64,000 nt of DNA from Methanobrevibacter sp. (GTDB taxonomy: Archaea; Methanobacteriota; Methanobacteria; Methanobacteriales; Methanobacteriaceae). The stretch covers positions 1 to 64,000 of the forward strand of contig JAFRFD010000009.1 of NCBI GenBank assembly GCA_017434525.1. The letters run 5' to 3'. Position numbers and translations under genes: made by a program. The notes under the pieces are model-generated. The model did not search any database and was not told the origin of the DNA. It saw nothing but the letters and a program-made list of their open reading frames with translations. Shown here piece after piece: positions 9,001 through 45,600 of the stretch; position 1 is the first letter of the stretch, and each line of letters begins with the position of its first letter.

Positions 9001-10662
9001 TGCCTTATTGCCTATGAACCTTGAACCTATCAGGTTACCATTACTTCCATAAACATAACCGGCACCACCATCATGACCAGCAAAGTTGTTTATGAAAGTT
9101 GTGTTTCTTACAACACCATAACTTACACGCACATAACCTGCACCACCGTCTCTGCCTGCATTACAGTTTGAAAGTGTTGAGTTGAACACACCTAATCTGC
9201 CCACATAACCTGCAAGTGCAGCCATAGCATTGGCGTTGATTGTGTTAAGGTATATTGCACCACCATCAACAGTGGCATTCTCACCATCAAACAGACAGTG
9301 GTCAATATGTGCTCCTACTTCAAGGTATATCGCACCCCCATAACTGGCAACATCATTAGTGAAGTTTGTGTATGTTACATCACAGAAAGTACCGGTAACA
9401 TACATACCACCACCATTTATTGCTCTTCCATTATTGAAAGTGGTGTTATACACATTACCGTTTGTAATGTTTTCAAGGTATAATGCACCACCGTTACCGC
9501 CAGTAGCATTGTTGCCATTAAAAGTAGAGTGTCTTATAGTACCATCAGTAGTGTTTACCCATCTGATAGCACCACCATCAGTTGCAGTATTGTTTATGAA
9601 ACGTGATAGTTCTACAGTTGATGAAGCACCTTTAAAGTATATTGCTCCACCAGAGGTTGCTGTGTTATTTGTGAAATTGGAATTTATCACATTTGCATAA
9701 TTACCGTCCCAATATATTGCACCACCAAATGCATTATTACCGGATGCATTGTTGTTGATGAATCTTGAGTCTTTAATAATTCCATTAGGGCATTGCATCA
9801 ATACTGCACCCCCACCATTATTAGTAGCGTTATTGTTTATAAAATCACAATTGATTATGCTAATCTCATCATTTTGAGTGGATCCGCCACCTGCGTGGAA
9901 AGCTGCCCCTTGAGAAGGTGCAGTATTGTTGATGAAATAGGAATCTGAAATAGTTAATTTGTTCATTTTGGATCTGAGCCTAATTGCACCTCCACCTGCA
10001 TTTGTAGCAGCGTTGTTGGTGAAATAACAATTTTTAATGGTACAGTCAGTACCGTAACCCCAAGCCAAAGCGGCCGCTACGTTTGCATTGTTAAATGAGA
10101 AATTACAGTATTCAATGGCACCGCTACCTATGAACTCCACTGCACCAAATGCGCTAGTATGGGTTCCTTCACTGCTAAATGCATTGACAAAGTTGATGTT
10201 TCTTAATGTAACATCGCCTACTGCGCGATGAACAATTTCTTCACCGGAATAAATTGAACCGACACCAAAAATCCTCGCTACGCCGCTTCCATTAATCGTA
10301 TGTCCTTGTCCATCGATAGTGATATTTTTATAGAATATTACTCCTTTCTTAAGCAAATCACTGTCGACTAGCTCGTTATAGGCATAATCATTTTCCAGAT
10401 AAACAATGCTTCCCTCTACAACACTGGCATCGTTTATCTTCGCATTCAGTGCCGTAAATGATCCGTCATCTGTAGCAGTTAACACCTCCCGTTCAGTTGA
10501 TTGCTGAAGCGCATTCACTTCAATTGTTTGTAATGTACTTTGATTGCCATTTGCAGATAGTGTAGTGTCATCTACGTTTTCATTTGCGGATACAAATGAC
10601 AATGACAGAACAAAACAGATTAACAAACTCAGTATTATCAATTTATGTTTGTTTTTTATCAT
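1..10662 (-). CDS. giant adhesin-like surface protein, C-terminal end missing (left edge)
   Basis: This is a secreted surface protein whose frame stays open from an ATG at 10662 to base 1, giving 3554 codons in the window. The start follows AAAAGAGGTTGC, a good ribosome binding site. Residues 1-26 form a signal peptide (basic start, hydrophobic core, ending near V-S-A). From about residue 60 to 2690 the protein is a long run of beta-helix repeats of about 20-40 residues with G-G-A-I/V-Y and S-x-F-x-N-N motifs, as in Pmp/pectate-lyase-like adhesins. A junction domain follows (nt about 2600-2180). Then come about eight Ig-like modules of some 90 residues, each ending in a Y-x-G-D-x-x-Y and F-x-V pattern. 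N-x-S/T sequons are very frequent. A role in attachment to partner cells or host surfaces is known for similar Methanobrevibacter proteins and is inferred here. The end of the Ig array and any anchor lie outside the window. Confidence 0.9.
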   Translation of the reverse strand, partial: MIKNKHKLIILSLLICFVLSLSFVSANENVDDTTLSANGNQSTLQTIEVNALQQSTEREVLTATDDGSFTALNAKINDASVVEGSIVYLENDYAYNELVDSDLLKKGVIFYKNITIDGQGHTINGSGVARIFGVGSIYSGEEIVHRAVGDVTLRNINFVNAFSSEGTHTSAFGAVEFIGSGAIEYCNFSFNNANVAAALAWGYGTDCTIKNCYFTNNAATNAGGGAIRLRSKMNKLTISDSYFINNTAPSQGAAFHAGGGSTQNDEISIINCDFINNNATNNGGGAVLMQCPNGIIKDSRFINNNASGNNAFGGAIYWDGNYANVINSNFTNNTATSGGAIYFKGASSTVELSRFINNTATDGGAIRWVNTTDGTIRHSTFNGNNATGGNGGALYLENITNGNVYNTTFNNGRAINGGGMYVTGTFCDVTYTNFTNDVASYGGAIYLEVGAHIDHCLFDGENATVDGGAIYLNTINANAMAALAGYVGRLGVFNSTLSNCNAGRDGGAGYVRVSYGVVRNTTFINNFAGHDGGAGYVYGSNGNLIGSRFIGNKAVNAGGAVMWIGSNGTANHTNFTANHAVGPNGNGGSIVWQGVNGTIYDCLFNISTAKKSGGAVYIAGNNTKIIYSDFQRYNATSGGAIFVEGEKVNITDASFVYGEARYGGAIYVDGNETRIIDVNLTRNHATTDGGVIYVEGNDAKIIRTNITFSYSEHSGGAVYINGNDTFIKDTNFTYTNASSANGGAIYVNGDDANITNSKFSLNYAINGGAIYIEGSGTHVTISDFSQNGVNPNQIASTGDTKGGSIYIAGDGAVIEKSNFTQSNAGNGGILYIAGNYTNITKSRFKFAIAVLNGGAVYVGGKNASITASTFQYTNATNGGAIYLAGNETNIDANFSYCFAKNGNGGAIYVLGDNNNITNANFTITNAIGGNGGAIYAGGVNTTLTNCHSNIANAIQTRPGTGNGGAVYISGDEAKIIKSVFNFYNATGTGGALYVQGNNMNISHSSFEYGESNLGGAIYINGNKTHMEHSNLTHNHANTNGGIIYINGHNATITDSNLKYSYALASGGAIFINGMENTIKNSNLTYNNASTGFGGSIYINGNYNNITECNFSSMNSHISGGAIYITGANATVSYSNFTKTVAYSGDGGAIYISGLNTTVDHSIFEDISIDDGDGGAIYIEGNRAKVDYCNFTRISSPNNKGGAVCVAGNNSEILNSNMTNCSAFTNGGALYIIGHNATVNVDFENCEATGYIHYKSLDYYVPSYGGAIYIEGDDNNITGSSFKNCTVHYKTSEAISSGGAIYISGKRNTIEYSTFTQDVSEDSIGADIYVKGDNNNITHSTFDNSKASSGGSIYVEGHKVYIHNSTFEICRAPGDGGAIYLSGDNGTIDNCTLKETYSNSNGGAIYISGHNDTVSNSHFKRNDQRGTVVVQYGGAIYLEGNLGKVINSTFNHTGAIKDGGAIYIAGNNATIDNSNFTNSSANYGGVIYVAGDNATLNKLLCENSNSTKDGGALYIFGEHCELHNSTFKNNTALDDGGAINWEGDFGTIYNITCEDNKGISGGTSHSKGGTISLTANDMSVNKTKITNSFVSYNGGAMFVTGNNVNITESEFKNCRVNTTLNADGDDLPYGGALYILGNSTNVLDCTFDDCRAQEGGIIFVQGNDVTINNATCTNSNTTSNGGAFYILGENAIISNSHVTDSNATVSGGAIYITGENANITGSSFNLTNAFGHETDGGGAIFVEGNYAVISSSNFTETYANYNNRAIGGAIYVEGHGVNITKSNFNRTGANLYGGAIYIDGENTTVKGSNFTNCSVDNGYGGAIYIKGYKTTVETSNFENNNASVSGGAIYVNGLLTNIIDSNFTYNYATTGGGAIYLINCHNTTINGSTFKNNNATEGLGGAVRFDINTLYCVIDSSNFENNHASNDGGAVYWGESNYGRILNSNFTNNSASSTSAAPGGNGGAVYWSNAIGGYINNSRFIDNFVVYKSGVTNTFKAQGGAIFWTGNHGLIENSYFRGNNASSGQDRRGGGAIGLAKEMGDLLARNTVINNCTFEENYSPHGGAICSELCQNTTIKNSHFNNNTAGTGGAIYIENARNVTIINTTFDGNHAREGGAYYGNQFYNYNITMDRCNFTNNSAQYGGAIKIKRVFGLEITNARFENNLANDSDRNVGGGAMSINEVQNDQPSVMKLINITFINCTTKSSGNGYGGALQLRTNASILENINFTDCYAVYGGSIALYGCINTSFKNININGSEATSGGSIYMEGGNIAFANATIYDSYAKSNGGSIYVHGSNSNIYNIVIRKTESKGNGGSVYVEGSNTNIHHINITDSMSSGAGGSISWGGYNGTLNFANINNSHSNGGGGAVYWTGGSGKLYNTTINSNIYANDGGSIYWTGNYGTVFNVTVNDTRSSGYGGAIYWQGNNGNLTKIFINNSESAKSAGAIYFKNSASNTVLNNVEIVNSIAKGTSNYARGGGGIYIDCTSSLTMNNVKMNNVSAQWGGALYILGNNANTGSNNNFTNFTISLSKATEFGGAVYIADDNKNEGVAANNVLVNFTITNASAKDGGAVYIKASNANNCKDNKLLNSTIADCTATNYGGAVYWKASEGMIDNLTCINNTAKYGGAIYADTYSLTINNSNFTLNKAERGSAIYTNVALSITNTSFIKNRANSASLDIEVNSANTQVTITFKGWDNLLNAIYVTSTSTPIAVGNVTYWDYAGTANTGTDSLTATTTSSMVEAGQNITIGIYDLENNQLYYGNEILTDVNGQIVINVGTTGSSQRRMSASKFGDILRATNNQINVFAFLTNEDYYTYIEQVYGTKSASHINADADNIDYHQNTTINVSMVEPATGIVSIYINDTFYDNITLDSEYKGGLINVSSLKWGKFLPAGEYEVLAKYWGDDNYLPSRTTATFIVDKLPTNITFDVEDKGYNLYINLTVFNDDILDVTGNVTLEIDGRTFTVDINNSKGFIIVDNIAPGNYTINAAYNGDSNYLNSTNSTDFTMLHKDPASIILNVSDIMINETESINVTVNVNGTGNVTIYVNGKPYNVTLNESRAQLNVTNLPKGTNYVLVIYDGDKNLTGGRVEDTFLVSKYLPTININMTNITYGKTEKLNITLPDDAEGIIKVTINGTKYYGEIEGGNVIINVTGLKVGVYNVTVYFYEDGKYLSGTNTTLFNVSKVTPDIKIDVDNVTYGNHTIINVILPSDATGTVTLKINDTYKVLEDVELVNGTYCWDAGVLPSENYTVEVTYSGDTNYNGNVNSTDFEVYPPAHVVNPTPMTIYVHDIYVGDTITIVVSVPAGASGNITLEINGINKTEIIDANGNATFTLSDLIYGNKTVYANYIGDANYAANHTTDQFKVLKRNSQLNVTATGNTVGSNATITVQVQNNATGHVTVNVNGTNYTIELNSTGGGSVQIKGLGNGTYYVHATYLGDNQYKSSYNDTETFVMSKLNTTMVISVEDIDYGQKANITVTITSGATGYITIRINETRNVTLPISEGKVNWIVDGLAADNYTVWANYSGDAKYNVNNTDKVNRSFEVRQVTPVITID

Positions 10663-10724
10663 TTTTTTGCAACCTCTTTTTAATTTAATTTCACAAAATA
10701 TAGCGAAAATCATCGCTTATACTA

Positions 10725-23200: not shown

Positions 23201-26200
23201 CCTTTTACAGCCTTGTTATAAGTGAAATTGGAGTTAGTTACATAGAGCACTTTATCGTTACCCTCTAAGATATAAATAGCACCACCCATCTCGGTTGCAG
23301 TGTTGTTTTCAAAAGTACACTGGTCAAATGTTTTTGCATTACCATAAACCTTATAGACAGATAATGCTCCACCCACATTAGCAGTGTTGTTTATGAATGA
23401 AACGTTTTTGAAATCAACTGTCTTAATTTGTTTAATCATAACAGCACCACCACCAAAGATTTCGTATTTACCAATACCCTGAGCGGTGTTGTTTATGAAT
23501 TTTGTATTTTCAACTAAAACATTGCCCGGAACACTACTATCAGCAGATTGCATATACAGTGCTCCACCTTCTTTAGATGAGTAACAGTTCTCAAATAGGG
23601 AATCTCTAATGGTATAATTCGCATTTGGTCTTAAATACATGGCTCCACCTTGAGCCCATATGCCATTATTCTGATCACCAGTGGTAAAAACATAATCCCC
23701 TATAAAAATACAATTGTCAACCAATGCATGCAAACTTTTATCCCATAAAATAGCACCACCATCAGCTTTATGATTAATGCTAGATACGACTGAATTATTA
23801 TAGAATTTGGAATTTTTAACAGTACCGTAATATCCTCCTTCAGACCAATAGACAGCACCGCCACCTTTTGTATTTAATTGATAAGTATTTGCTTTAGCAG
23901 TGTTATTTATAAATATACAATCATCAACAACATTATTTCTAGAACTATCCCCACCATACCAGAAGATAGCACCACCATTACCTTCCGCATCATTATTTGT
24001 AAAGTTAGAAGCATATACCCTGGAATTTGATCCGGTAGAGTACATTGCACCACCATGTCCTTCCCTATTTAATGTATGGGAATCATTAAATGAAGAATCA
24101 CTTACAGTACAGTGGTCACCTTCAAGGAATATTGTTCCTCCAATAAATGCTTTTGATGTTTCAAATTCAGAACTTAAGATTCTAGTATAATCCCCTTCAA
24201 TATAAACAGTTCCTCCTTCACCCACAGTAGTTGATACTGAAGAATTGTTGAAGATAGAACCTTCAATAGTAGCATTATTTTCATTAATGTAAATGGCTCC
24301 ACCACGAGGATTGGTGTTTTCATATTTTCCACCAGTGACTGTAGAATCTGTGAAGTTGGAATCTTTTACAGTTGCATTGAAACCTTCGATGTAAATTGCT
24401 CCACCGCGATATTCAGAAGAAGTCTTATTGAAAGTGGATTTTTCTACCAGAGCATTTTTACCGTCAATATAAATAGATCCACCGTTGTCCGGAGCGGAAC
24501 AGTTCATAAAGTCAGATTCTGTGATTGTAGTGTTAACACCGTTGATGTAGATTGCACCGCCTTCACCCTTAAGTGCGTTACCTACAAGACATCTCAAGAA
24601 TGTGGAACCTGTGATGTTGGTGTCGTTACCCGCAACATAAATGGCTCCACCTTTAATGCCCAGGTTCTGGAGGCTTTCAGCAGCATTATGAATAATTCCC
24701 AATTGTGATTTGACATATGTAAAGTTATCTGATAATTCCGTAAAGTCACTTCCGGCATATGCATCTAAAAGCAAGTCAAGGTTAGCTTCAATATCTGCAA
24801 CATTTACCATTACATCATACATTACATTGTTAAAGCTTTTGAGATTTGTTTGTGAAACCAACTTATCTAAATTACTTTTCAGAGCATTTACATTAGTTTT
24901 ATAAGCCCCATAAGTATTTTTAATGTTTCGTGAATAAGTCATTAATGAAGAAATATTGTTATAAGCAGCTGACCTAACCTTATCATAGACATTATAAGTA
25001 GCATCATCAGGATTATCTGGAATGGACCTTAAACCTCCAATAATTATACTGAGATTATTTAAAAATTTATCATATGAACCGTCTTTTTCTGCGAATTTTA
25101 CACAGTCATATACTTCTGTTAGATTGTCTATTGCATGATGAAGATTATTTACATTTAATTTTTTATCAACGAATATTTTATTAACAAGATTGTTTCTAAT
25201 GGATTCTAATCTTTTATAAAGATAACTATTATCATTACCTAAGATATTTATATAAGCCATTTTTGTATTAAGACCATCATAAACAGGTTTTACCTTGCTG
25301 TTGTAATAATTATAATTATCACTGTCAATATCTGATAGCAATGAGATATAACTTGATAAGTCCAATGTATCCAAAAGCACACTATCAGTTACCATATTAG
25401 GCATAGCATTGTTAAGTTCAGTTAAATTTCCTATTGCATTGTGAAGATTATCCACATTCAAATGTCTGTTACTGAATATTTTATTGACAATATTGTTTCT
25501 GATGAAAGAGAGTGAATTATAAATATCACTGAAATTATCACTAAATCCGTTATGAATATCATTATTATATGCGATTATTCCATTAACTTTAACTAAAATA
25601 TCCCTGATTGGGGATATGAATAAGTTAATGTCCGGAGTTACCCATGCAGCAGGGAACCCTGCACCACAGTCTATAAAGTCAACTGAAATTGTAGCATTGT
25701 TTCCTTCTACGTAAATTGCACCACCCTCATAGGTTGCGTTACTTAAAGTAATAGTTGAATCAAGGATTTGTGAATTTTCACTTTTAATATAAATGGCTCC
25801 ACCTTTACCTGAAAGCGCATCTTGGAAAGCGGATACATCTAGGTTTTCATCTAATAGAGTATGTGAATCGCTGCCTGCAACTGTGTCGTTGAGGATACAT
25901 CCCATAACAATAGCATGGTCCCCGTCAATGTAAATTGTACCCCCGTTTAATGCAATAGAGTCTGTGAAGTTGGATTTGTCGACTTTAACGTCATGACCTT
26001 GAACATAGATTGCTCCACCTTCCCTGGCTTCAGAATCATCGAAAGTACAGTTTATGATATTGGAATAATTACCCAATACATAGATTGCTCCTCCACCGTT
26101 AGCATAAGATTTATTGGTTTCGGCTATGTCCATTGAAACATTACAGTCTTTAAATTCAGTATCAGTAATGTTTACATTGTTACCAGTTACAAATATAGCT

Positions 26201-29200
26201 CCTCCTGCAATTAGAGCGTAAGTCTGTGTGAAACTTGATTTTTCGATTGATGTGTCGTTACCTGTAAGGGAAATGGTACCTCCGTTTGAAGAGGATCCGT
26301 TGAGACTTATTCCTTTGTTGTTTTCACATGTTATATTATATATTTTACCCTGGTTTCCGTCCCAGTTGATTGCACCACCGTCGTCTCCGGCAGTGTTGTT
26401 TATGAATTTGGAATTGTACAGTTTACCTCCTTGACCGGCAATATCTATTGCCCCACCGTCTTCAACGGAATACAGGTTCATGAATACACTGTTGTCCACT
26501 TTTACGTCATGACCTGTAATGTAGAGTCCACCACCATAAACTGCATCTGTGCTGTTTATGATAGAACCGTCAATGAGCGCTTCGTTACCTGAAATGTAGA
26601 TAGCTCCACCTTGCGCTATAACTTCCGGAACTACCAAAGTATCGCTAACAGTTGAAATGTTTCTTAATTCTTTTGCAATCTTTTCAACATCATCAGATAA
26701 ACCTAAAACGTTGTTAGCATCTATTGTGTGCAAGGTTTGATTAAATTCATCTAATAAGCTTAAAGCAAGAGTGATATTGGTTAAATTGAATAGGCTATTG
26801 TTAAATATGCCCTTGACTGTGTCATTAATTTTAATTAAGTCTGATTTCAATGTAGTTATATTATCTGCAGTAATTTCAGAAGTAGGTGTAAACTCATCAA
26901 GAACTTTAATCATTCCATCGATTTCAGCTGTGATATTAGCCGGAGTTTCAAGGCTTTGAGAAACCTCAAGAACATAATTCAATTCTTTTTCAATTGTTTC
27001 AAGGTCACTGATTAACTTGAGTGTGATGTTTTTGGCTCCACCAGGATTCAATGTGGAATTCAATTGAGTCAAGTTTGCATTCAACTTGCTTATGATGTCT
27101 AAAGCTATTGTTACATTGGTGCTGTTGATTCCATTGTCATTTAATACGTTATCAACAGCATTGTAAAGGTCCCTTAAAGTACTGTTCAGACAGGTGACAT
27201 TTTCATCTGTAATATCCTCACCGATGACATTTCCGGTTTTTATTGTCAGAACATATTTAATCAGGTCATCTATGTCATATTTTATCTCTTTTACATTGTC
27301 CTTGAAGAACTTGTAGTCAACAGTCTTAACGTATGAATCCGCTCCCAATGCATGGGTATCGGTAATGTTTACTGAAATTGTTGCACGGTCACCTTCCACA
27401 TAGATTGCACCACCCTGTGTTGCGTTACATTCTTCAAAGGTACAGTCTGTGATTGTAGTGTCGTGACCTAAAATGTAAATTGCACCACCTTCCTCAACTG
27501 AAGTACAATTTTCAAAGTTTGTAGTCATAATAGTTACATCATCTCCAGTAACGAAGATTGCACCACCGTCAGCTCCGGCGAAACTGTCCTTGAAGCTGGA
27601 TTCAGAAAGTGTTACATCACCACCAGTAAGACAGATTGTACCACCGTTGGAGTTGGAATCCCCTGCACTGATACCGCTGTTGTTTTCACATGTGATGTTA
27701 TATATGGTACCGTGGCTACCTTCCCAGTAGATTGCACCACCATCATCACCTGCAACATTGTCCTTGAATGTGGAATTGTGCAGTTCGGCATAGTCACCTT
27801 TTACATACAGTGCAGCACCGTCTTTAGTGATGTTGTTGTTGGTGAACTCAGATCCTATGATTTTCACATGTTCTCCTTCAACATAGATTGCACCACCGTC
27901 AGGCGCATGACATTCGTTGAATGTTGAGTCACGAACTTGTACATAATCACCAAGAATTTGGATAGCACCACCTGTTTCGGTAGTTACGTTACAGTCATCA
28001 AATTCTGAACCTGTGATGTTTACATAGTTACCGGTTACGAAAAGAGCTCCACCAGTGACTTTAGCATGGCTTTGCTTGAAGCTAGAGTTTGAAAGGGAGA
28101 TGTTGTTACCGTTAAGACAGATTGTTCCTCCTTTGGAGTTACCGTGTGTGCTTACTCCACTGTTGTTTACACATGTGATGTTATATATAATACCAGCATC
28201 CCCTTGCCAGAAGATTGCACCACCGTCGTCACCAGCATAGTTGTCTGTGAAAGTGGAATTGTGCAGTTCACAGTTAGTACCATCAATGTAGAGTGCTCCA
28301 CCGTCTTCGTCGACATAGTTTTTCTCAAATGTGGAATTAATAATCTTGTCTTCGGATGCTCCTTCCCTGAAGTGCACCGCACCTCCGAAGTTTTTAGCTG
28401 TGTTGTTGATGAATGTGGAGTTTATGATTGAACTTTGGCTAGCATCTATATCGAATGAAATTGCTCCACCATGACCTGTAAGATCTTTATTTAAACCGCT
28501 TGAAGTATCATGAGGATCATTGAATGTGTTGTTTGCAGTACCTAAAGCACGGTTGTTTTCAAATCTGCATAATTCAAATGTAACATTATCATTGTCCTGT
28601 AAAAATACTGCTCCACCACGGCCAAGAGCAGTACAGTCAGTAATATTAGCGTTATAAACCTTAATGTGGTCACCGGTAAACATTATAGCTCCACCGTCAC
28701 CGCCTGTGGTATTGGTATCCCAGTGACTGGAATCCCAACCTGCATATTTAACTTTACCATCTTTATTTTGAGTTATATCTCCACCGTGAGCAGTGGTGTT
28801 TTTAATGATGATATTTCTGAACTCACCATAGTCACCGTCATAGTATATTGCACCGGCAGAACGGGCAGCCTCAGTGTGAGTGAAGTTACAGTCGATTACC
28901 TTACCGTAGTTAGCACCTGCCAACCAGTCAAGACCTCCACCGTTAGTACCTGAAGTACAATTCTCAAAGGTACAGTTATAGTAGTTTACATGGTCTCCAC
29001 CAGTCATGTATGCTCCACCACCACGACGAGCGGAATCAGAGTCAATGAATTTACAATTATCTATAGTACCGTTGTCTCCACCCCAGTAAATGGATCCACC
29101 GTCACCACCGAAGTACTCATCAACCGCCCAATCGATTGGGGAAGGACCAGTTTCAGTGGTTTCATCGATTTTAAGCCAGAAGTGAGAATCTGTAACTTGA

Positions 29201-32200
29201 GATACATATAATTCATATTTAGCCTTTTTAGTTCCATCGTAGATTACAAGAACATATAACTTATTATCAGTAGCTGTGGAAGGTTGGTCCAGATCATATG
29301 CATCTGCACCAGTTACATTTATAACATCATCTAAACTGGTCAATACAGCATATTCTGTACTGATTACAACACCTAATGCTTTGTTTCCAGTGAAATTACA
29401 GTAAGTTACATTACCACCAGTACCGTCCCAACAGAATGCTCCACCATTACGTTTAGCAGTGTTGTTGTCAAATGTGGAATTGTATATTGTACCATTAATA
29501 GAACCGAATGCGAAGAATATTGCACCACCATCACGTGCGGCGGTGTTGTTGAAAAATTTAGAGTTTTTGATTGTACCATTTGTGGCACCGATATCAAATC
29601 CGATAGCACCACCATGACCAGTATTCCATTTGTTAAGTCTACTGGTTACATCTTTATCATTAGTATATGTGTTGTTTGCAGTACCTAATGCCCTGTTGTT
29701 TTCGAAAGTACATAAATCAAATGCCACATTATGATTATCCTGCAAGAACACAGCTCCTCCACGACCAGAAGCAGTACAGTTAGTGAATGTGACATTGTAA
29801 ACATCAATGAATGAACCAGTGAACATAATAGCACCAGCGTCACCACCGGTAGTGTTGGTATCCCAGTGACTGGAGTCCCAACCTGCATAGTTAACCAGCT
29901 TGTCTTTACTTTGTTTTAAAGCACCACCATAAGAAGTGGTATTGATGATAGTGATGTTTTGCATGTCACCATACCAACCATCGTAGTAGATTGCACCTGC
30001 TGAACGTGCAGCACGAGTATTATTGAATATACAATTATATATCTTACCATAGTTAGCACCAGCCAACCAATCTACTCCACCACCATTTGTACCGGAAGTG
30101 GAATTTGTGAAGTTACATAAGTTATAGGTAACATTGTCAGAACCTGTCATGTATGCTCCACCACCACGACGTGCAGAGTTGGAATCTGTGAAACTACAGT
30201 TGTATACTAAACCTATATCACCACTCCATAAAATGGAACCTCCATCACCTCCATAGTACTGATCAATTGCCCAGTCAACAGGTGAAATGATTGATTCTGA
30301 AATATCAATTGTAGTTTCATCAAGTTTCAACCAAATTAGTCCAGTTCCATTATTGTGAGCGACATATGATTTGAATACCTTTTTGGTTCCATTGGTATAA
30401 TTGAGCACAAATAGTTTATTTACATCATTTGATGTAGGGGTAACAGTTGGTAAAGTACTATTTTGAATGACATAAATATTTCCTAAAACCAAGTTGCCAT
30501 TATCTTGAACAACAATTGATGTTCCCATATTTAAATCAAATGTATATTCCCATTCAGTACCTGTTGCTCTGTTGTTGGTGAATCTTGAATTTTTGATTGT
30601 ACCATTTTGACCGTGCCAGAAGATAGCACCACCATTACGTTTTGCAGTGTTGTTAATGAAAGTAGCATTATTCACCAAACCGTCTTCTGCGCCGTCATGC
30701 CAGTCAATAGCACCACCATTGGTACCTGCAATGTTGTTTTCAAAGTAAACGTTCCAGAAGGTAGTGTTTTTATTACCGTGACTGCAACGGTCAAGGTATA
30801 CTGCACCACCACGACCTCCGGCAACATAATTATCATTTCTTATAGCTTCATTTTCAACAAATCTACAGTTATCAACATCACCATTAATACCTGCCCAGAA
30901 GATAGCACCACCATCACCGACATTACCATAATGACCAGGATGTACACCTTTAGCAGTGTTATTGGTAAAGTTGGAATATGTTATATTACCATTATGACCT
31001 CTCCAATATATAGCACCACCATTTGCATTTGCAATATTGTTGTTGAATGTGGAATTGATTATCTTACCGTCGTGTGCACCTTCGTGCCAGTCAATAGCAC
31101 CACCATTGGTACCAGCAATATTACTTGTAAAGTTACAGTTACTGAATGTTGTATTAGTACAGTTATCAGTAGCACTACCTTGGAGATATATAGCACCACC
31201 ACGACCACCAGAATTAGTAGCCTCATTATATTTAGCCTCATTGCTGATAAATCTACAGTCATCTATAGTACCGTTAGGACCAGTCCACATTACAGCACCA
31301 CCGTAACCGCCATAAGTCATATTACCGTAAGTATCATTAGCTTCTTTAATACCTAAAGCAGTGTTATTGGTAAAGTTGGAATATTTGATTTCACCACCAA
31401 TACCAGACCAGAATACAGCACCACCAGACCTATTAGCAATATTATCCTCAAATACAGAATTTAGGATATGACCATTTCTAGCACCACGATACCAATCAAT
31501 AGCACCACCATTAACACCAGCAACATTACCAGTAAATGTACATGTATCAAACTGAGTGTTATTACAGAGACCTTCACTACTACCTTGCAGGTATACAGCA
31601 CCACCTTTATTAGATGCATCATTGGTAGTGAATGTACAGTTATATACAGTACCTTCTGAACCTACCCACATGATAGCTCCACCATTACCTCCATAGGTCA
31701 TACTACCATAAGAGTCTTTATCCTCTTTGATACCTAAAGCTGTATTGTTGGTGAAGTTGGAATATTTTATTGTACCTATTGTACCGAACCAGTATACCGC
31801 ACCACCACTACGGTTAGCAGTGTTATTGGTGAATGTGGAGTTAAGTACATAACCATAATGAGCACCTTTAACCCAATAGAGTGCACCACCATTAGAACCT
31901 GCAGTGTTGTTAATGAATGTACAAAGTTCATATTTGGTGTTATTATTAGTAGGGTCAGTACTTGTATTAGTTAGGAAAGATCCACCACCATATAGTTTAG
32001 CAGTGTTACTGATAAAAGTAGTGTTATATACATAACTGTCGTGAGCTCTAACTACTATTCCACCACCATTACCCGGATAATAAGGTGTAGTACCAACCAC
32101 ATCAAATAGACCTCTAGCTTCATTATACTTGAAGGTAGAATTATACATTTTGAAATTAGTACCTTGCATACCCACTGCCCCAGCAGAACCGTTAGCAGTG

Positions 32201-33626: not shown

Positions 33627-33627
33627 T
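33594..33627 (-). terminator. hairpin plus T-run after the 5404-residue adhesin
   Basis: Directly after the TAA stop, the minus strand reads ATCATGA, a TTTT loop, then TCATGAT, a perfect 7-bp stem (33610-33616 with 33621-33627). It is followed by T-rich bases (TTCTTATTTTTCTTTTTTTT). The layout is that of a factor-independent terminator. Confidence 0.65.
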
Positions 33628-36600
33628 TACTTTTTAAATTTTCTCATTTGACCTGAACCCAATACCAATAATATTAATATTAATAATATTATAGGGTTTC
33701 CGGTAGGATATTGATACAAACTTATTCCACCATCATGTTCAAATACATTAGTGGCATTAGTAGTATCATTTTTCTCTACAGGATTGACTTTTATAGATCC
33801 TACAGTATTACCCGGAAGATATTTTTCATCACCTGAATAGTATGCAATGATGTCATGTTCCCCAGCTTTCAAGCCAGGAATGATGAATATTGCCACCCCA
33901 TCTTCAATATCTGCAGTGTACTGTTTTCCATCGATTTCAATAGTAATTGTACCTGTTGCATCTTCCGGAACATATACAATAATTTCACCATCTTCACCAA
34001 CAGTGATTTCAGGCGCTTCAATGTCCACTTGAGGTTTTAACTTAAGAACATCAAATGTTGTTCTGTTTTCACTTGGTTTGAATAATATTGTACCCTTATA
34101 TTCAACTGTAACAAGTTTTGTGCCTGCTTTTAGACCCGGTACGACCAATATTGCTTCACTGTTATTGTCAAGCGGAACAATGTATATTTCACCATCGACA
34201 GTTACTGTTACGTTTCCGGTTAGTCCTTCAGGGCCAACCTTAATGTTGATTACTGCATCTTCACCGACATAGATGTCATCGGCTGTTACGACAACAGTGC
34301 TTTGTTTGTCCCTTACATGGAACAGGTCACTTGTATCTACACTTGTGTAGTTTTCATTACCTGGATAGAATGCATATGCAGGATATGCGCCTACCGGCAA
34401 GTTGATTAAGTTCCAAGTTGCATTGCCCTTGTAGTCATGTTTTGTTGCTGTCAGTACATCAGTGGTTACGACTCCATTGTCAAGGGATATCATCACTGTT
34501 CTGTTGTATATTGTGACATATACGAATCCAGGAGCATTGACTGTTATGTTCGCCACTTCTATTTCGCCAACCCAAATGTCTTCAACCTCAATAGTGATAA
34601 TCGGAACAACACGTGCTACATTGAATGTGCCTGATGTTGAGTTTCCAACATACACTCCGTCTCCGCCATACACGACAGTCACAGGATAGTCTCCTCCTGC
34701 CGGATCGATTATCGGCAAGGTCACCTCACCATTATTGATCGGTAAACCAGCATAAGTCACGTTTCTTACAGTGATGTTTACTGTGCCTGTTGCCCCTTTA
34801 GGTAATGTTACCTTGAGGATTTCATCTTCACCGTAAGTGATGTCATATGCATCAATGCTTATTGGAGTGTTGCGTTTTTCGGATGTCACATTGTCACTGG
34901 TATCATTGTTGTTTGTCAGGTTTGTATCGTTTTCCCTGGATTTTGCAAATGCGACGTTTTCAATTGTGCCGTTTGAAATGACACGTGCAGTGATTGTTAA
35001 GATTACGGTTTCACCGGCATTGAGATTACCTATTGATGATATGCCTGTCTTGTCATCATAGACAATTCCTTTGCGTGAGGATTCGAATGAAACGAATTTC
35101 AACAGGTCGCTTAGCTTATCAGTGACATTGACTCCAGTGGCATTGGAAGGACCGTAATTTACAACGGTTATTGTGTATTCTATAAGGTCATTCACATTTA
35201 CCACGGTTGTGTTTACAACTTTACTTATTCTGATATCCACTATCGGAAGTGCAGTTACATTATCAGAGCTTCCATTGTTATTGGATTTGTTTGTATCATT
35301 TTCTCTGCTTTTTGCAATTACTATATTTTCAATAGTGCCGTTTGCGATAACCTGAACTGTTAAAGTCAGGACCACAGGTTTATTCACTGATAAATCACCG
35401 ATGTGCCATATGTTTGTTGAATTATCATAATAACCCACGTCAGCTTCTGCTTTAACCAGTTTTACAAACGGACTTAATTTTTCAGTCACGTTAACACCGG
35501 TAGCGTTGCAAGGACCAGCGTTAACTACAGTGATATTGTATTCTACTAAATCTGTCACGTTCACGACAGTTGCATTTACTGTTTTATTAATCCTTAAATC
35601 GACAACAATCTGTGCAGTTATGTTTGTAATGTTAGCCACATTGTTTGAAGTGTTTGTATCGTTTTCAATGCCTTTGACTGTAACAACATTTGAAATGTTT
35701 CCTGCAGACATGACACGGGCCACAATGGTCAGTGTAGCATTGGACTGATTGGTTAATGTTCCGATATTTTTCCATGTGAAACCGTCATATTCACCAACAG
35801 TTGCATTGGATGAGACCATTTCAAGTAAAGGACTTAATTTCTCAGCTACAAACACGCCATGGGCATCACATGGACCATCATTCCTGATGAAGATAGTGAA
35901 TTTGATTAAATCACCCACAACAACAGAAGAAACATTAGCCTCTTTTGTAATCTGCAAGTCAACAATATTCAAAGAGGTAATGTTAGTAATGTTAGCCTTA
36001 TTGTTTGAAGTGTTTGTATCATTTTCAATACCTGATACTGTAACCACATTTGAAATATTGCCCTCAGAGACAACACGAGCCACAATAGTCAAAACAGCAC
36101 TAGACTGATTAGTCAAATTACCAATCATCCAAGTGAAACCATCATAATCACCCAAAGTAGTAGTGTTGGAAACATACTCGAGATGTGAATCCAAAGCCTC
36201 ACCAACAAACACACCAGTAGCATCACAAGGACCATTATTCCTAACAGTAACAGTGAACTTAATCAAATCACCCACAACAACAGAAGAAACATTGACCACT
36301 TTTGTAATCTGCAAGTCAACAATATTCAATGAAGTAATGTTAGTAATGTTAGCCTCATTGTTAGACTTATTAGTATCATTTTCAATACTGTTTACCACCA
36401 CGACATTAGATATATTGCCCTCAGAGACAACACGAGCCACAATAGTCAAAACAGCACTAGACTGATTAGTCAAATTACCAATCATCCAAGTATAACCATC
36501 ATAATCCCCAAGAGTAGTTGTATTGGAAACATGCTTAAGATGGGAATCCAAAGCCTCACCAACAAACACACCAGTAGCATCACAAGGACCATTATTCCTA

Positions 36601-39600
36601 ACAGTAACAGTGAACTTAATCAAATCACCCACAACAACAGAAGAAACATTAACCTCTTTTGTAATCTGCAAGTCAACAATATTCAAAGAGGTAATGTTAG
36701 TAATGTTAGCATTATTGTTTGAAGTGTTTGTATCATTTTCAATACCTGATACTGTAACCACATTTGAAATATTGCCCTCAGAGACAACACGAGCCACAAT
36801 AGTCAAAACAGCACTGGACTGATTAGTCAAATTACCAATATTCCAAGTATAACCATCATAATCCCCAAGAGTAGTTGTATTGGAGAAATGCTTAAGATGG
36901 GAATCCAAAGCCTCAGTAACAATCACACCAGTAGCATCACAAGGACCATTATTCCTAACAGTAACAGTGAATTTGATTAAATCACCCACAACTGCTGATG
37001 AAACATTGACCGCTTTTGTGATCTGCAAATCAGCATTGGTTATTGCTGTGACATTAGGAATGCTTGCATTGTTGTTTGTGTAATTGGTTTCGTTTTGATA
37101 TGCGTGAACGACAACCACATTTGTAATGTTACCTGCATAAACCGCCTGTGCAATAATTGTCAAGGTTGCATTAGTTCCGTTTAACAGCTTAGGAATGTTC
37201 CATGTGTAACCGTCCCACTTACCGGCAGTGGTGACATTGCTGAGCAATTTAAGTTTATCGCTTAATGATTCTGTTACATATATGCCTGTAGCATCACAAG
37301 GACCGTCATTAAAGACTGTGATGACAAACTTGATTTTCTCAGTCACGCCAATTTCGGATGTGACGTTTGCCTCTTTGGTTATTCTCAAGTCAACAATAGG
37401 CAATACTGCAATGTCAACTTCATCCCAATTGTCATATGGATTGTTATCCTTTTCTGTGCTGTTTACAATAACCAGGTTTGGAATGACAGTTCCGTTTCTC
37501 ATCACTAGAGTAACAATGGTTAAGTTTACACGAGATCCCTTGGACAGATTGCCTATATGCCAGATGCCTTCGGTTTCATTATAGTAGCCTGATTTTGTTT
37601 CAGCCCTAATGAACTTGAGGGCAGGATTTATTGTCTCGTTTACCATCACATTGGTTGCATTGCAAGGACCGTCATTGTAGACAGTGACTGTGTATTCAAT
37701 GAAATCGTATACCTTAGCGAATCTGGAGGTTATATTTACATCCTTCATGATTTGCAAGTCAACAGTAGGAAGTGCAGTGATATTAGGAATGCTTGCATTA
37801 TTGTTTGATGTGTTGGTATCGTTTTCTGTACTGTTTACGAAAACAACATTAGAAATGTTTCCGACTGAGACAACATTGGTTACAAGGATTAATTGCCTCC
37901 AATCGTATTTGTTTAATGTGCCGATGTGCCAGACACCTTCATCAACATCATAATATCCGTCCCATGTAGTCCAATCGGCCAATTCAAGATGAGGACTTAG
38001 GACTTCACTGACATTCACATTAGTGGCGTCGCATGGACCCCTATTGCGAACTGTGATTGTGAATACGACTGTATCGCCGACATATGTAATGTTACCGACA
38101 TTGGCCTCTTTTTCAATTTCCAAATCGACAATAGGGTTTGCAGTGATATTTGGAATTGTCTTATTGTTGTTGGATTCATTGGTATCTATGTCATAGCCGA
38201 ATATTTCAACGTAATTTGAGAAATTACCCGGTTCCATAACGCGAGCGACAATTTTCAATGTTGCATTAGCGCCTGCATCCAAATTGCCGATATACCATGT
38301 ATAACCATCATCATATCTGGTGCCCGGAGAGGCAACATGATATTCTTCTTTGAGATTAGGGTCTAAAGCTTCAAGCACATAGACACCGCTGGTGTTACAA
38401 GGACCGTAGTTATGAGCTGTAATGGTAAATTCAACAAGATCGGAAACATTGACAACACCTGTTGTGACATTGACAGTCTTGTTAATTGCCAAATCGACTT
38501 TGGTGGTTGCAACAAGAGGGGTTATATTGTCGTAATTGTTGGACATGTTAATGTCATCATCATTACTTGTTACAAATACCTCATTTTCGATAATGCCTGA
38601 GTAAACAATTCTGGCAACAATAGTCAAGTTAGCTTTCTCGCCGACAGTCATGTTTCCTATTACCCATGTATATTTATCCTTATATACTCCTTTGGATGCG
38701 TTCCAACCTTGTTTCTTTCCACTAGGATCGGTTACATTATCATACACTTCACACATTCTAAGTTTATCACTTAAAGGTTCACGAATATAGACGTTAGTAG
38801 CATTGCAAGGTCCGTCATTGACTACAGTGAGAGTGAATATGAGCACATTAGTCACATTGACATCAGTGCCTACAATGTCGACTGTTTGATAGGTAGTTAA
38901 GTTGAAAAGACCAACAGTCTTATTGATTCTCAAATCAACAATAGGCTCAGCAGTAATGTTAGGAATGCTTGCATTGTTGTTGGATTTGTTGGTATCGTTT
39001 TCTGTACTAGTTACATTGACCGCATTTGTAATGTTTCCAAGTGAAGTCACGTTAGCATAGATTACTAATTTACACATACCACCTTTAGCCAAATCTCCAA
39101 TATGCCAAATATGGCCATCATATGTTGTTCCAGGAGTTGCATCATGATGATACATATGAATAAGAGAGCTTAATTCTTCACTTACATTCACATTGGTTGC
39201 ATCACAAGGACCGTTATTTCTAACGGTGATTGTGAAGATTATCTTATCTCCGTAATGAACAGAACCGCTTACATTAGCTTCTTTTTCAATTTCCAAATCG
39301 ACAATAGGGTTTGCTGTAATGTTTGGAATTGTATCATTGTTATTAGACAAGTTAGTATCAATGTCGCTGCCATTTATTACAACATAGTTTGAGAAATTGC
39401 CCGGTGCAATGACGCGTGCAATGATTGTTAAAGTAGCGTTAGCTCCTGCATTCAAGTAACCGATATTCCAGATGTGACCGTCATATGTAGTGCCTGGAGT
39501 TGCAACATAAGTATACTCACCAAGATGAGGATCCAAATCTTCAATCACATAAACGCCCGCAGCATTGAAAGCACAATTATTGATAGCGACAATAGTGAAC

Positions 39601-42600
39601 TTGACCAGGTCAGTCACATTGACAACACCAGTTGTGACATTGACTGTCTTGTTTACAGTTAAATCCACATGAACTGTTGCATTGAGCGGAGTGATGTTGT
39701 CCTTATTGTTTGAAGGGTCTCTATCAGTTCCGTTACCTGTCACAATGACGACATTTTCAATGATACCGGAGTATGCGACTCTAGCAACGATTGTTAAGTT
39801 TGCATAATCGCCAGCATTCAGATTGCCGATATACCAGGTGAAACCGTTCCATTCACCAACAGTGGTGACATTGCTGATTAAAGCAAGTTTATCGCTTAAC
39901 ACTTCAGTTACGGTAACATTTGTAGCGTTACAAGGACCATCATTGTAAACAGTGATATTGAACTGAATCACGTCAGTTACCCCAACGTCAATTGTAGTGA
40001 CATTCACTGTCTTGTTGATTTGTAGGTCAAATAGAAGCACTGAGGTAATATTCTTGATTTCAGCCCTGTTGTTGGATAGGTTAGTGTCCTTTTCTGTGCT
40101 GTTTACGACAACAACATTGGAAATGACTCCATCACTTATCACCTGAGCATCAATTGTCAGGACTGCTGTGGATTTGTTGGCCAAATCACCAATATACCAG
40201 ATACCATCAGTTACGTTATAATATCCGTTTGCTGTTACATTGTCAAGCAATTTGAGATGAGAGCTTAACACTTCGGTTACATTCACATTGGTTGCATTGC
40301 AAGGACCGTCATTATATACTGTAATGGTATATCTGATTTTGTCAAGCACATAGATTAAATCGGAAGTGACATTCACATCTTTTTTAATCTGCAAGTCAAC
40401 AATAGGTATTGCGGTAATATTAGGGATTGTGTCATTGTTGTTTGATTTGTTGGTATCGTTTTCTGTGCTGTTTACTCTAACTGAATTAGTAATGTTTCCA
40501 ACTGAAGTAACGTTGGCATAGATGACCAGCTGCCTCCAATCGTTCTTAGCCAAGCTGCCGATATACCAAATACCCTTATCAACATTATAAATTGTGTTTC
40601 CGGTTGCATTATAATGGTCCAACTTAAGATGAGGACTTAATACTTCACTTACATTCACGTTAGTTGCATCACAAGGACCGTTATTCCTAACGATGATTGT
40701 GAACATTATTTGATCTCCAAACTCGACAATACCTGAAACATTAGCCTCTTTGGAAATTTCCAAATCAACCACAGGCCTTGCGGTAATGTTTGGAATAGTG
40801 TAATTGTTATTGGATTCATTGGTATCGTTACCCCAACCAAATACTTTTACGTAATTTGAGAAATTGCCGACTTCCATTACACGAGCGACAATTGTCAAGG
40901 TAACGTTTTCACCAGCGTCCAAATTACCAATTACCCAAGTATTGCCACTATAGGTAGTGCCCCGACTTGCAACATGGGAACATTCCTCGAGATGTGAATC
41001 CAATGCTTCAAGCACGTAAACACCACTGGCATTACATGGACCGTTATTATAGGCTGTGATTGTGAACTCAACCAGGTCACTTACGTTGACAACACCGGTT
41101 GTAACGTTAACTGTCTTGTTTACACCTATATCAATGTGAGCTGATACACGAATAGGAGTGATATTATCCTTATTATTGCTGAGGTTAGTATCGATTTCAT
41201 TACCGGTTACATTTACCTCATTTTCAATAATACCTGCATATGCAATTTCTGCAAGGATTACTAAAGTAGCTCCTTCTCCACTATTTAAATTACCGATATA
41301 CCAAGTGTAACCATCATATGTAGTGCCTAGAGGTTTAACAATTTGGATTGGCCTGAGAATATCACTTAACGGTTCACAGACATACACACCAGTAGCATCA
41401 CAAGAACCCGCATTATAAACCTCAATGGTGAACATGATTTTCTCAGTAATGTCAATTTCAGTCCTGTCAACATCAACTGTTTTTTTAATCTGCAAGTCAA
41501 CAATGTTTACTGCAGCAATATCATCAACATGATCTTGGTTATTGGACAAATCAGTGTCTTTTTCAGTACTGTTTACAATAACTCCATTTGAAATGGTTCC
41601 ATTGCTTATCACTTGAGCAGTAATGGTCAAGACAGCTGTGGATTGATTGTTTAAAGTACCAATATACCAAATACCATCAGTTAAATTGTAATAACCATAT
41701 TCAGTCTCATTTTTAATCAACTTAAGATGAGGACTCAATACTTCACTGACATTCACATTGGTTGCATTACATGGACCTGCATTAAATACTGTAATTGTGT
41801 ATTTGATGGTATCGGTCACATTAATGACCTTACCAGTGAAATTGGATTCTTTATCAATCTGCAAGTCAACAATAGGTAGCGCAGTAATGTTATCAATTTC
41901 ATCTCTATTGTTGGATGTGTTTGTATCGTTTTCTGTGCCTGTTACAACAACCACATTGGAGATGTTACCTGCTGAAATCACTTGAGCCACAATGACCAAA
42001 TCACGCCAGTCGTCTTTAGTCAGATTGCCGATATACCAAACACCTTCAGTTACATTATAACGGCCTCCACCCCATGTATTATATCTTATTAATTTAAGAT
42101 GAGGGCTTAAAACCTCACTTACATTAACATTAGTTGCAGTACATGGACCTTTATTCCTAACAGTAATAGTGAATACGACCACATCAGTTACATTGACTGC
42201 CTTTGGATTTCCATCGACTGTCTTAGTGATTTCCAAATCAATTGTGTTGATAGCTGTGAAGTTTTCGATGCTGTCATTGTTGTTTGATTTGTTTGTATCG
42301 TTATCATTACCGAAGATTGCAACCACATTGGAAATGTTTCCTTCTGAGATTACCTCAGCAATGATTGTCAAGTTATGGACTTCTCCACTGTTCAAATTAC
42401 CTATAATCCAAGTGGCTCCATCATATTCGCCGATGGTTGTCACATTGGAGACATGTCTAAGATGAGGGCTTAAACGTTCACCTACATATACACCGGTTGC
42501 GTTACATGGACCGTTGTTTGTAACTGTAATGGTGAATTTAACCCTGTCAGTTACGCTGATAACACCAGAAACGTTAACGTCCTTGGTGACTTTCAAGTCA

Positions 42601-45600
42601 ACATTAGCTACTGCAGTAATGTTTTTGATTTTAGCCACGTTATTGGTATAATCAGTTTCGTTTTCAAATCCTGAAACGCGAACCACATTGGAAATGTTAC
42701 CTGAATAGACCACTTTGGCAACAATGGTTAATGTTGCATTTGTGCCGTTTGTCATGTTACCTATATTCCAGGTACCTCCACTATACTTGCCTTGAGAGGT
42801 AGTGTTGGAAATTATCTGCAAGTGATCGTCAACAAGTTCCTGTACAATGACACCTGTTGCATTGCAAGGACCGTCATTGAATACTTCAATGTCAAATTTG
42901 ATTACATCAAGCACCGCAATAACATCTTTTGTAACGTTGACCTTCTTATTGATGCGCAAATCGACAATTGGCACTGCTGTGAAGTTGTGTGCGGAAGCAT
43001 TGTTGTTGGTTTCATTGATGTCCTTTCCAAAGCTTGTTACCCAAACAGTATTTGTTATAGGTCCCATGTGAACCACTTCGGCAATGATTGTCAATGTTTC
43101 AAAGTCATTCACATCCAACTCACCTATATACCAATAGCCACCTGTAAGATTGTATTCGCCTTTTGTCGCTTTGCTTTTGCTTAATCTAAGATATGGACTT
43201 AACCTTTCTGTCACATTTACATTATAAGCCACACTTGGACCATGATTTGTCACTGTTATTGTGTATTTGATGATGTCAGTGACATTGACATAATCCGCTG
43301 TGATATTGACATCTTTTGCAATTTCCACATCATCATATGGAAGCACTTCAAACAATGTCCAGTCAGTGTCTCCGGTATGGTTCAAGTCGCCTGCAAATGA
43401 AGCGGTCGCATTATACTTGCCTATGGCCAGGTCAGTGATATTGTATTTTACTCCGGTACCGTTTTTAACATCAACTGTGAATGTTGTATGTGCGGTATCG
43501 TTGAATGTAACTGTGACTGTTCCGTTCAGGTTACCCCATGCGCCGTCAGTCAACTCTATGAGAACTGTCTGGTTTTGAGCGTAGTATATAGGGGTGTATA
43601 CATATATCTTGACGAGACTGCTGTTGGACAGTGTGTCCCTTAGATATGTGTAGTACCTGTCTGTCTTATGCACATATGCGAAATAATATGTTTCACCATC
43701 CTTGGCATCGAAAGTGTATTTGACCTTACCGTCCTTATCTGTAGCAAGGTCCGCTGTATTTATCTGCACACCTTTATCATCATACATTTCAACAGTGACA
43801 TTGATGTTTACTTCCCTGTCGCTTTGGGTTGGAGCACTGTCAGCTACTGTCTTGCCGTCAACTCCCCAATATGTTACGTTGGTACATGAAAGCGGATTGG
43901 TGGCCTCTTGCCAGATTGCGTTTAGGAGATTGTCAAATCCTAAAAATATTGCACTGGTGTAATTATTGCCATCTTCATCCACACCGACATGCTTTTCAAT
44001 GAACTTGTTTGAATTTGCCTGGTTGTCAAGAAGAACATCATTTGCTAATGTGAACCTGTTGACTTTAGTGACATATATTGCAGAACCCTGGAATGCAGTG
44101 TTATTGATTAAATCGCTGCCTCTTACCCAGCTTGATCCGGATTTGTCAATGTAGTTATGGTAGATTGCACCACCTTTCTCTTCAGCTGTGTTGAATTCCA
44201 TAATGGAATCGTCTATTTGGATATGGACGTTTTGAGAGAATATTGCTCCTCCTCTTTTAGCGCTGTTATGCTCGAACTCAGAAGTGGATACGATAATATC
44301 GCTTCCGATACCATATAAAGCACCACCATCCTTATTAGCTACATTTCCTGTAAATGAAGTGCCGGATATACGTCCGGTTACCTTATTGAAGTATAATCCT
44401 CCACCCAAATCAGCATTGTTTTCATTGAATGTGGAATTGTAAACCCAAACGCTGGTTGAACCTCTATATCTTTCAAGGAAAACTGCACCACCATAGGAAG
44501 TTCCATCATCTGTTGAAGCGCGTGAGCCTTCAACAGTAATATTGTTCAATGTTACGGCATCCCTCAAGTAGATAGCACCACCATGAACATCACCATTGTT
44601 TTTATAAGCGCGTGCACCATCAATAGTGACATTACTCAATTCACCAATAGTAGTTGAATAAATTGCACCACCATCAGCGCTGTTGGTTGAATTGATTACT
44701 TCTGTCTGGGAATAGGTGATTGAAATATTGGTTATGGTACCAGGAGTACTGCCTTTCCAATATATTGCACCACCGTTACCGTTTGCATATGTGTTTGAAA
44801 TGGTTGCATTGATTAAGGTACCTCCATATCCGTTCTGGTAGATTGCACCTCCTGCACCATTCATTTTCACGTTGGCGGAAGTCGCATTATCAATAATGAT
44901 ATTTGTCAATACACTATTGGAACCTCCGATGTAAATGGCACCACCATAATTGGTTTTTGCAGCAGTTTCATCGGTGTTTGCAGATGCTTCGAATATCCTG
45001 ATATCATTCATGACACAGTTCCAACCGGCCACATATATGGCACCACCGTCAGATATTCTTGAACCGGTGGAATGTGAGGATGATTTAAATATTGTTACGT
45101 TATTCAAATAACCGTCAGTACCTTTCCAATATATTGCACCACCTTCGGCATTTTGTGTTGATGCGTTTTCGATTGACACATTGATTAAGGAACATTGAGC
45201 TCCTAATATTGCAATTGCACCACCAGGACCTTTAGCAATTGTGGAATTCATTACGACGGAATTTGAGATTGTGATATTGGAATCTCCATTTACACCAAGG
45301 AGAATTGCTCCTCCACCTTCACCATATTTACCATCTAAATCACCGACACGAGAATTGTAAATGTAACAGTGGTCGATTACGGAATTTTTAGCGGGACCCT
45401 CTTTCATCAATATTGATCCTCCACCGGCATTAGCCAGGTTTCCATCGAATGTATTGTTAAATACATATGAATTAGCCATCTGGTTTGCAATAGCTCCACC
45501 ATATTTTCCTGCAGTGTTGTTATAGAATTGGCAATTGGACATGTTTAAATTATAACTGTTACCACGTTGGTCACCAGTATAAAGTGCTCCACCGTCAGCA

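Follow-up and report, generated by a model that had tools for sequence, protein, structure and literature searches.

Introduction

In the rumen, methanogens live in attachment to hydrogen producers, and the proteins on their surface are regarded as targets for methane mitigation; to our knowledge, the part of giant beta-helical adhesins that contacts the partner is not known. In chlamydial Pmp proteins (PF02415), an FxxN motif and a GGA[IVL] motif are paired in each rung of the beta-helix, and the passage from FxxN to the next GGA[IVL], the T3 "omega-loop," is variable, is exposed on one face and correlates with tropism in PmpE (PMC10715098). The same study showed a Methanobrevibacter protein with Pmp-type motifs in its rungs (the legend of its Fig. 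7 reads "MAG" in the name of that protein as myelin-associated glycoprotein, where it almost certainly means metagenome-assembled genome). Adhesin-like proteins of Methanobrevibacter and Methanosphaera combine a signal peptide, a right-handed beta-helix, immunoglobulin (Ig)-like domains and a membrane anchor, according to the searched passages of a survey published in 2024 on the adhesins of M. smithii and M. stadtmanae, and those passages mention no helical insertions within the beta-helix (PMC11532034). Here, we describe a protein of this kind, 7,242 residues long and encoded on a 64,000-nt stretch of DNA from Methanobrevibacter sp. (the window; contig JAFRFD010000009.1 of assembly GCA_017434525.1), whose beta-helix is interrupted by two predicted helical domains, called arms 1 and 2 below.

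With the chlamydial Pmp proteins, the window protein shares both the FxxN and GGA[IVL] pairing in each rung and the variable omega-loops in this exact register. Whereas no structure is predicted with confidence for the omega-loops of Pmp proteins, however, those of the window protein hold predicted folded helical domains of ~240 to 333 residues, and the protein itself is archaeal, lacks an autotransporter barrel and carries Ig repeats and a C-terminal anchor. In other beta-helical adhesins, the extra-helical parts are the functional ones (PMC5422565, PMC5371414). Specifically, the M loop of HxuA and the extra-helical motifs of FHA project as functional elements from a beta-helical scaffold, but they are loops or small elements of type Vb-secreted proteins and not a repeat-built helical domain family (PMC5422565). 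The receptor-binding region of CdiA is comparable at most in its way of working, in that what is bound depends on the central region, variable and modular, of a long filamentous beta-helical protein; CdiA differs in being a bacterial toxin-delivery protein, and no homology is claimed (PMC5371414).

Results

The open reading frame (ORF) for the 7,242-residue protein has the strand and length given in the initial annotation. Its beta-helix extends to approximately residue 3300 and is followed by Big_3_5 Ig-like repeats and then by a hydrophobic anchor. In Pfam, Beta_helix scored 201.8 bits and Big_3_5 scored 928.7 bits over 32 stretches, a beta-helix and Big/Ig-like repeats thus occurring in a single protein as in Methanobrevibacter adhesin-like proteins, and the Pmp-type repeat profile (PF02415, Chlam_PMP) reached 74.9 bits at a curated cut-off of 20.6. 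No autotransporter barrel family was found with Pfam, the C-terminal half consisting of Big_3_5 repeats and a hydrophobic tail. By inspection only, a signal peptide is predicted at the N terminus (MNRKEILTIFILLICVIFSLQAVSA) and a membrane anchor at the C terminus (NPIFVILLILIALGSTQLRRFRK). The rungs are of the GGA[IVL]/FxxN type, with GGA-type motifs every 25 to 30 residues and a median GGA-to-GGA spacing of 28. This predicted domain order is that of a Methanobrevibacter adhesin-like protein anchored in the membrane. The source genome is a draft (173 contigs, estimated contamination of 7.9%), in which the ORF is intact, and the architecture was confirmed in relatives.

Against the median of 28, two rungs measure 268 residues (residues 1859 to 2126) and 358 residues (residues 2422 to 2779). 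Both read GGAIYVEG..ATISV ahead of the insert and GGAIY behind it, and in both, ATISV is followed by one more beta strand with a noncanonical FxxN motif (ITDT and FIDC, respectively) before the insert begins. Inserts 1 and 2 therefore share one loop, which leads from an FxxN-like strand through the insert to the next GGAIY and corresponds to the omega-loop. The initial annotation had described two inserts in equal register, of about 244 and 333 residues, each beginning after a repeat that ends in ATISV and ending at GGAIY. The register, the ends at GGAIY and the 333 residues of insert 2 were recovered exactly; insert 1 measures 243 residues, and while both inserts do follow ATISV, the repeat continues for one strand beyond it.

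Next, we modeled the inserts with AlphaFold2 (AF2). For residues 1700 to 2300, modeled from an alignment with three homologues (four sequences), AF2 placed strands up to residue 1876, eight helices within residues 1892 to 2117 and strands again from residue 2130 (mean predicted local distance difference test [pLDDT] score, 80.8; predicted template modeling score, 0.61), with the arm 1 helices mostly at a pLDDT of 80 to 90. Each half of arm 1 was modeled as helix, helix, short beta hairpin, helix, helix. Confidence was low at residues 1883 to 1888 and 2120 to 2124, i.e., at the two joints of arm 1, which suggests that the arm is flexibly attached there. Insert 2, modeled alone, was all helical at a pLDDT of 64.6, and the model is unreliable for the first ~50 residues, where scores mostly fell below 50. 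The composition of the arms differs from that of the beta-helix in Leu (11–13% versus 4%) and in Gly (4% versus 13–15%). The mean helical hydrophobic moment was 2.6 to 6.7 standard deviations (SD) above shuffled sequences in all 10 arms of the family described below, as opposed to below shuffled sequences in the beta-helix, and arms 1 and 2 have no GGA/FxxN rungs inside. The proposal of folded helical insertions in one register of the beta-helix, for which the initial annotation had suggested structure prediction as a check, is thus upheld by the AF2 models, by composition and hydrophobic moments, and by conservation: the segments are predicted to be helical, and both a continued beta-helix and disorder are largely refuted. 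Because the modeled beta-helix closes up again beyond the insert, the arms likely stand out from the rod.

Protein and profile searches were run over 139 genomes of the family and 152 genomes of the phylum (one genome per species). Ten arms were found in 7 of the 152 phylum genomes, all of them Methanobrevibacter, so that the proposed search of other Methanobrevibacter adhesins yielded homologues in six genomes besides the source. Type 1 comprises insert 1 of the window and the arms of genomes G074, G038 and G047; type 2 comprises insert 2 of the window, the arms of G089 and G039, two copies in G063 and an arm in a second protein of G038. In all 10, the arm is preceded by an [IF]xx[NTCS]-like motif (in some cases quite noncanonical) and ends just before a GGA-type motif, as expected of the long excursions between FxxN and GGA[IVL] in the PF02415 beta-helix. 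The two types align over their full length (hhalign E-value of 1.6e-10 over 229 columns, with columns taken from a joint alignment), and separately built alignments gave an E-value of 3.7e-4 over 89 collinear columns. According to these profile comparisons, inserts 1 and 2 are homologous and belong to one predicted helical domain family. The alignments are shallow, and arms that have diverged further may escape sequence searches. A scan of GTDB contigs with the insert 1 profile returned two Methanobrevibacter metagenome-assembled genomes (RUG10921 and RGIG2231, the latter from goat duodenum) whose contigs correspond in length to those of G074 and G047, while insert 2 alone as a query had no match among GTDB contigs. 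The phage records and viral contigs scanned for arms contained none and therefore give no sign of a viral origin. In G039, the armed adhesin (L102, C1) lies at ~145 kb, with its arm encoded at C1 positions 144929 to 145657, and at ~1.79 Mb there is a related giant adhesin (L100) that lacks an arm and is probably the published 7,805-residue sm9_1600.

The initial annotation knew of no named family for the inserts, and our searches likewise gave no convincing match. The window arms scored at best 20.2 bits in Pfam (cut-off, 34.6), none of the arms reached a cut-off in Pfam or NCBIfam, NCBIfam and PHROGs gave chance-level matches only, PDB sequences gave chance helical matches only, and the PDB fold search returned nothing at an E-value of ≤0.001. 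Three matches at an E-value of ≤0.001 came from the viral fold search, all with a template modeling (TM) score of ≤0.32, and we read them as beta-helix matches or as unspecific. Spectrin- and laminin-type coiled coils were rejected (SR_plectin_7, 13.1 versus a cut-off of 27; Spectrin_3, 12.9 versus 24.4; Laminin_II, 11.8 versus 33), as was a helical sensor domain of the McpS type (E-values of 0.16–0.35, a TM-score of ~0.3 and a root mean square deviation of 9 to 10 Å, where the same fold needs a TM-score of >0.5 and a significant E-value). As far as these sequence and fold searches reach, the arms are an undescribed domain family displayed by a known scaffold, the Pmp-type beta-helix.

The arms are built of four-helix units of ~115 residues, two in arm 1 and one extra in arm 2. 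Insert 1 matches itself at 36% over 109 residues (11 SD above shuffled sequences, with none of 300 shuffles as high), and units A and B of insert 2 match at 36% over 101 residues (14 SD) and are similar in DNA as well (Table 1). The third unit of insert 2 (C) stands 6.2 SD above shuffles when compared with B but 1.2 SD, i.e., chance level, when compared with A; the internal duplication reported for each insert thus applies to insert 1 and to units A and B of insert 2 but fails between the third unit and A. The extra unit of arm 2 (~105 residues) was found in no other arm. Across type 1, profile comparison of unit 1 with unit 2 reveals a clear duplication (Table 1), and both units match type-2 unit 1 (profile E-values of 3e-9 and 9e-9), whereas type-2 unit 2 has diverged (E-value of 0.003).

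The shared register alone is weak evidence, because the omega-loop also houses other large excursions of the beta-helix and because the helical inserts are related to each other. Since the other long excursions of the 7,242-residue protein lie in the omega-loop, the register follows from a scaffold that admits long insertions there, and we rejected the idea of a coincidence between homologous inserts that needs explaining. We also rejected the ATISV rung as a special socket: the IS[AV] rung carries 8 of the 10 arms yet also occurs unarmed in relatives (residue 1243 in G074, 2379 in G038, 2323 in G047 and others), and the type-1 arm of G038 and G047 sits on an ordinary rung. Two more large omega-loop inserts, at residues ~812 to 915 (window positions 30242 to 30555) and ~1207 to 1296 (29101 to 29370), are nonhelical by hydrophobic moment, share the repeated pattern LYVLN..NGTKK..WLKLDET, and have no match in Pfam or PHROGs; most related adhesins have similar inserts in the same place.

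We then compared the divergence of arm and rod. In G038 and G047, the one pair with a usable synonymous rate (dS; other pairs are nearer synonymous saturation), the nonsynonymous rate (dN) was 0.43 in the arm versus 0.11 in both flanks (approximately fourfold), while dS was alike (0.94 in the arm versus 1.02 and 1.10 in the flanks). Identity in the other type-1 pairs was 32–38% in the arm versus 48–76% in the flanks, and in the single type-2 pair 36% versus 41–45%, a contrast partly due to the invariant core motifs of the beta-helix. At ~0.45, the dN/dS of the arm is below 1 and is no demonstration of positive selection. Arms at 15–20% identity retain the fold, the length (~240 residues) and a hairpin motif in which Asn and Leu are nearly invariant.

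Each of the six type-2 modules begins with a rung whose omega-loop is extended (rung length of 39 to 48), continues with one rung of exactly 26 and then reaches the arm; the six are related by descent and hence not independent. The extended loop of the window is the shorter insert that had been noticed near positions 25790 to 25900 in a similar loop, and its omega-loop register is confirmed. Because two beta-helix rungs span ~10 Å, this loop would be located at the base of the arm and may contact it. In G063 (L104, G063:C105), the whole type-2 module occurs twice in tandem within protein residues ~2000 to 2720, the copies being 402 residues apart.

Three giant ORFs lie in tandem on the (−) strand over 50 kb of the window, at positions 1 to 10713, 11260 to 32988 and 33627 to 49841 (at least 3,571, 7,242 and 5,404 residues, respectively); the second and third encode GGA-type beta-helices, and the first runs off the contig end. 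N-glycosylation sequons number 80 in the beta-helix (34 in shuffled sequences) and 234 in the Ig part (62 in shuffled sequences). This two- to fourfold enrichment extends to type-1 arms; type-2 arms are at chance level.

Table 1. Features of the adhesin-like protein and its arms in the window
Feature	Residues	Window positions	Strand	Basis
Adhesin-like protein: signal peptide, Pmp-like beta-helix, Big_3_5 Ig-like repeats, C-terminal hydrophobic anchor (all predicted)	7,242 in total	11260–32988	−	Pfam; both ends by inspection
Rung carrying arm 1, GGAIYVEGDRATISVNITDTHAL	1859–1881	27346–27414	−	
Arm 1: eight predicted helices, two four-helix units	1882–2124	26617–27345	−	AF2; homologues in G074, G038, G047; hydrophobic moment z +5.8
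Arm 1 unit 1, predicted helices	1892–2012	26953–27315	−	AF2; unit 1/2 profile E 1.2e-22
Arm 1 unit 2, predicted helices	2015–2117	26638–26946	−	AF2; unit 1/2 profile comparison
Extended omega-loop, two rungs before arm 2	~2372–2393	25810–25875	−	Present in 6/6 type-2 modules
Rung carrying arm 2, GGAIYVEGNNATISVDFIDCGAG	2422–2444	25657–25725	−	
Arm 2: predicted all-helical, one unit beyond relatives	2445–2777	24658–25656	−	AF2; homologues in G089, G063, G039, G038; hydrophobic moment z +4.5
Extra tandem unit of arm 2	~2555–2659	25012–25326	−	Alignment; 73% DNA identity over 127 bp with preceding unit

Discussion

The structural part of our explanation, i.e., scaffold, register, helicity, homology and units, is very probably correct. 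We propose that the Ig chain and the beta-helix would form a stalk or spacer and that the helical arms would be contact heads set in scaffold loops reserved for variable parts. Each arm would be spliced into the omega-loop of one rung, with the beta-helix handing off through a short flexible joint, and the chain would return at the next GGAIY, where the beta-helix goes on. The two arms would leave the rod ~10 rungs (roughly 50 Å) apart and probably on one face. They may bind a partner, be it another microbe, host material or a neighboring adhesin; binding is the likeliest function, and we give it about an even chance. Analogues of such a mechanism are the modular receptor-binding region of CdiA (PMC5371414), the M loop of HxuA (PMC5422565) and the loops of PmpE that are linked to tropism (PMC10715098). 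As the arms diverge faster than the rod, and given their position, they are good candidates for the cell-contact parts, and a binding role that rests on position, fast evolution, modular gain and duplication is plausible. Taken as a whole, a rod-and-arm adhesin with the arms as candidate contact surfaces is the explanation that we favor, slightly beyond an even chance. Several points weigh against it. Where adhesion has been mapped in an adhesin of rumen Methanobrevibacter, which is in Mru_1499 alone, the site is a Big_1 Ig domain and not a helical arm (PMC9213418), and the arms are rare, so most related adhesins work without them. In addition, fast evolution at a dN/dS of ~0.45 also fits relaxed constraint, the AF2 alignments are shallow and the confidence for arm 2 is modest.

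The arms could instead be structural, tying neighboring adhesins of the same or sister cells together or spacing the rods, with no foreign partner involved. Helical bundles with tandem units would suit spacing or self-association, arm length has changed by one unit in the window protein, and beta-helical adhesins are known to make homotypic contacts (PMC5422565); nevertheless, arms that diverge faster than the rod are unexpected for a conserved self-interface, unless the partners co-vary within a species, and we consider a purely structural role unlikely. That same fast protein change at a dN/dS below 1, together with the patchy presence of arms and a position that tolerates length, would also suit a tolerated surface decoration with no ligand of its own, which drifts in a permissive loop or varies the surface against antibodies or viruses. 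Such freedom fits poorly with the conservation of fold, length and hairpin motif among such divergent arms and with a flanking module kept in six of six type-2 cases, and decoration, too, appears unlikely; both alternatives nonetheless have to be reckoned with.

That the segments are not separate domains at all, being continued beta-helix or disordered linkers, could be argued from the small AF2 depth and the low confidence for arm 2. The absence of rungs inside the arms, the helical composition and periodicity of 10 homologues, and the confident helices of arm 1 next to beta flanks in the same model speak against it, and we regard it as highly improbable. The sensor domains of McpS, PilJ, TorS and McpZ are among the nearest helical matches of the PDB fold search, and those of McpS, PilJ and TorS (PDB 2yfa, 7zjr and 3o1i) resemble the arms in size and in forming stacked or tandem helical bundles, which might make the arms sensor-like domains for small molecules, related to the helical domains of chemoreceptors. 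With E-values of 0.08 to 1.3, TM-scores of ~0.2 to 0.3 (below any same-fold threshold), no sequence match and no signaling partner in the 7,242-residue protein, such a relationship is scarcely credible.

A further, tentative proposal, to which we give somewhat less than an even chance, is that the arms represent a new extracellular helical domain family, seen in Methanobrevibacter only so far, that acts as an exchangeable, length-adjustable binding head on a wholly duplicable beta-helix module (an extended loop, then a plain rung and the rung with the arm), which may give rods with several independently evolving heads. The arms offer short, expressible, rapidly evolving segments for testing adhesin contact, and, should the proposal be true, these independently evolving heads would choose the partner cells of the methanogen.

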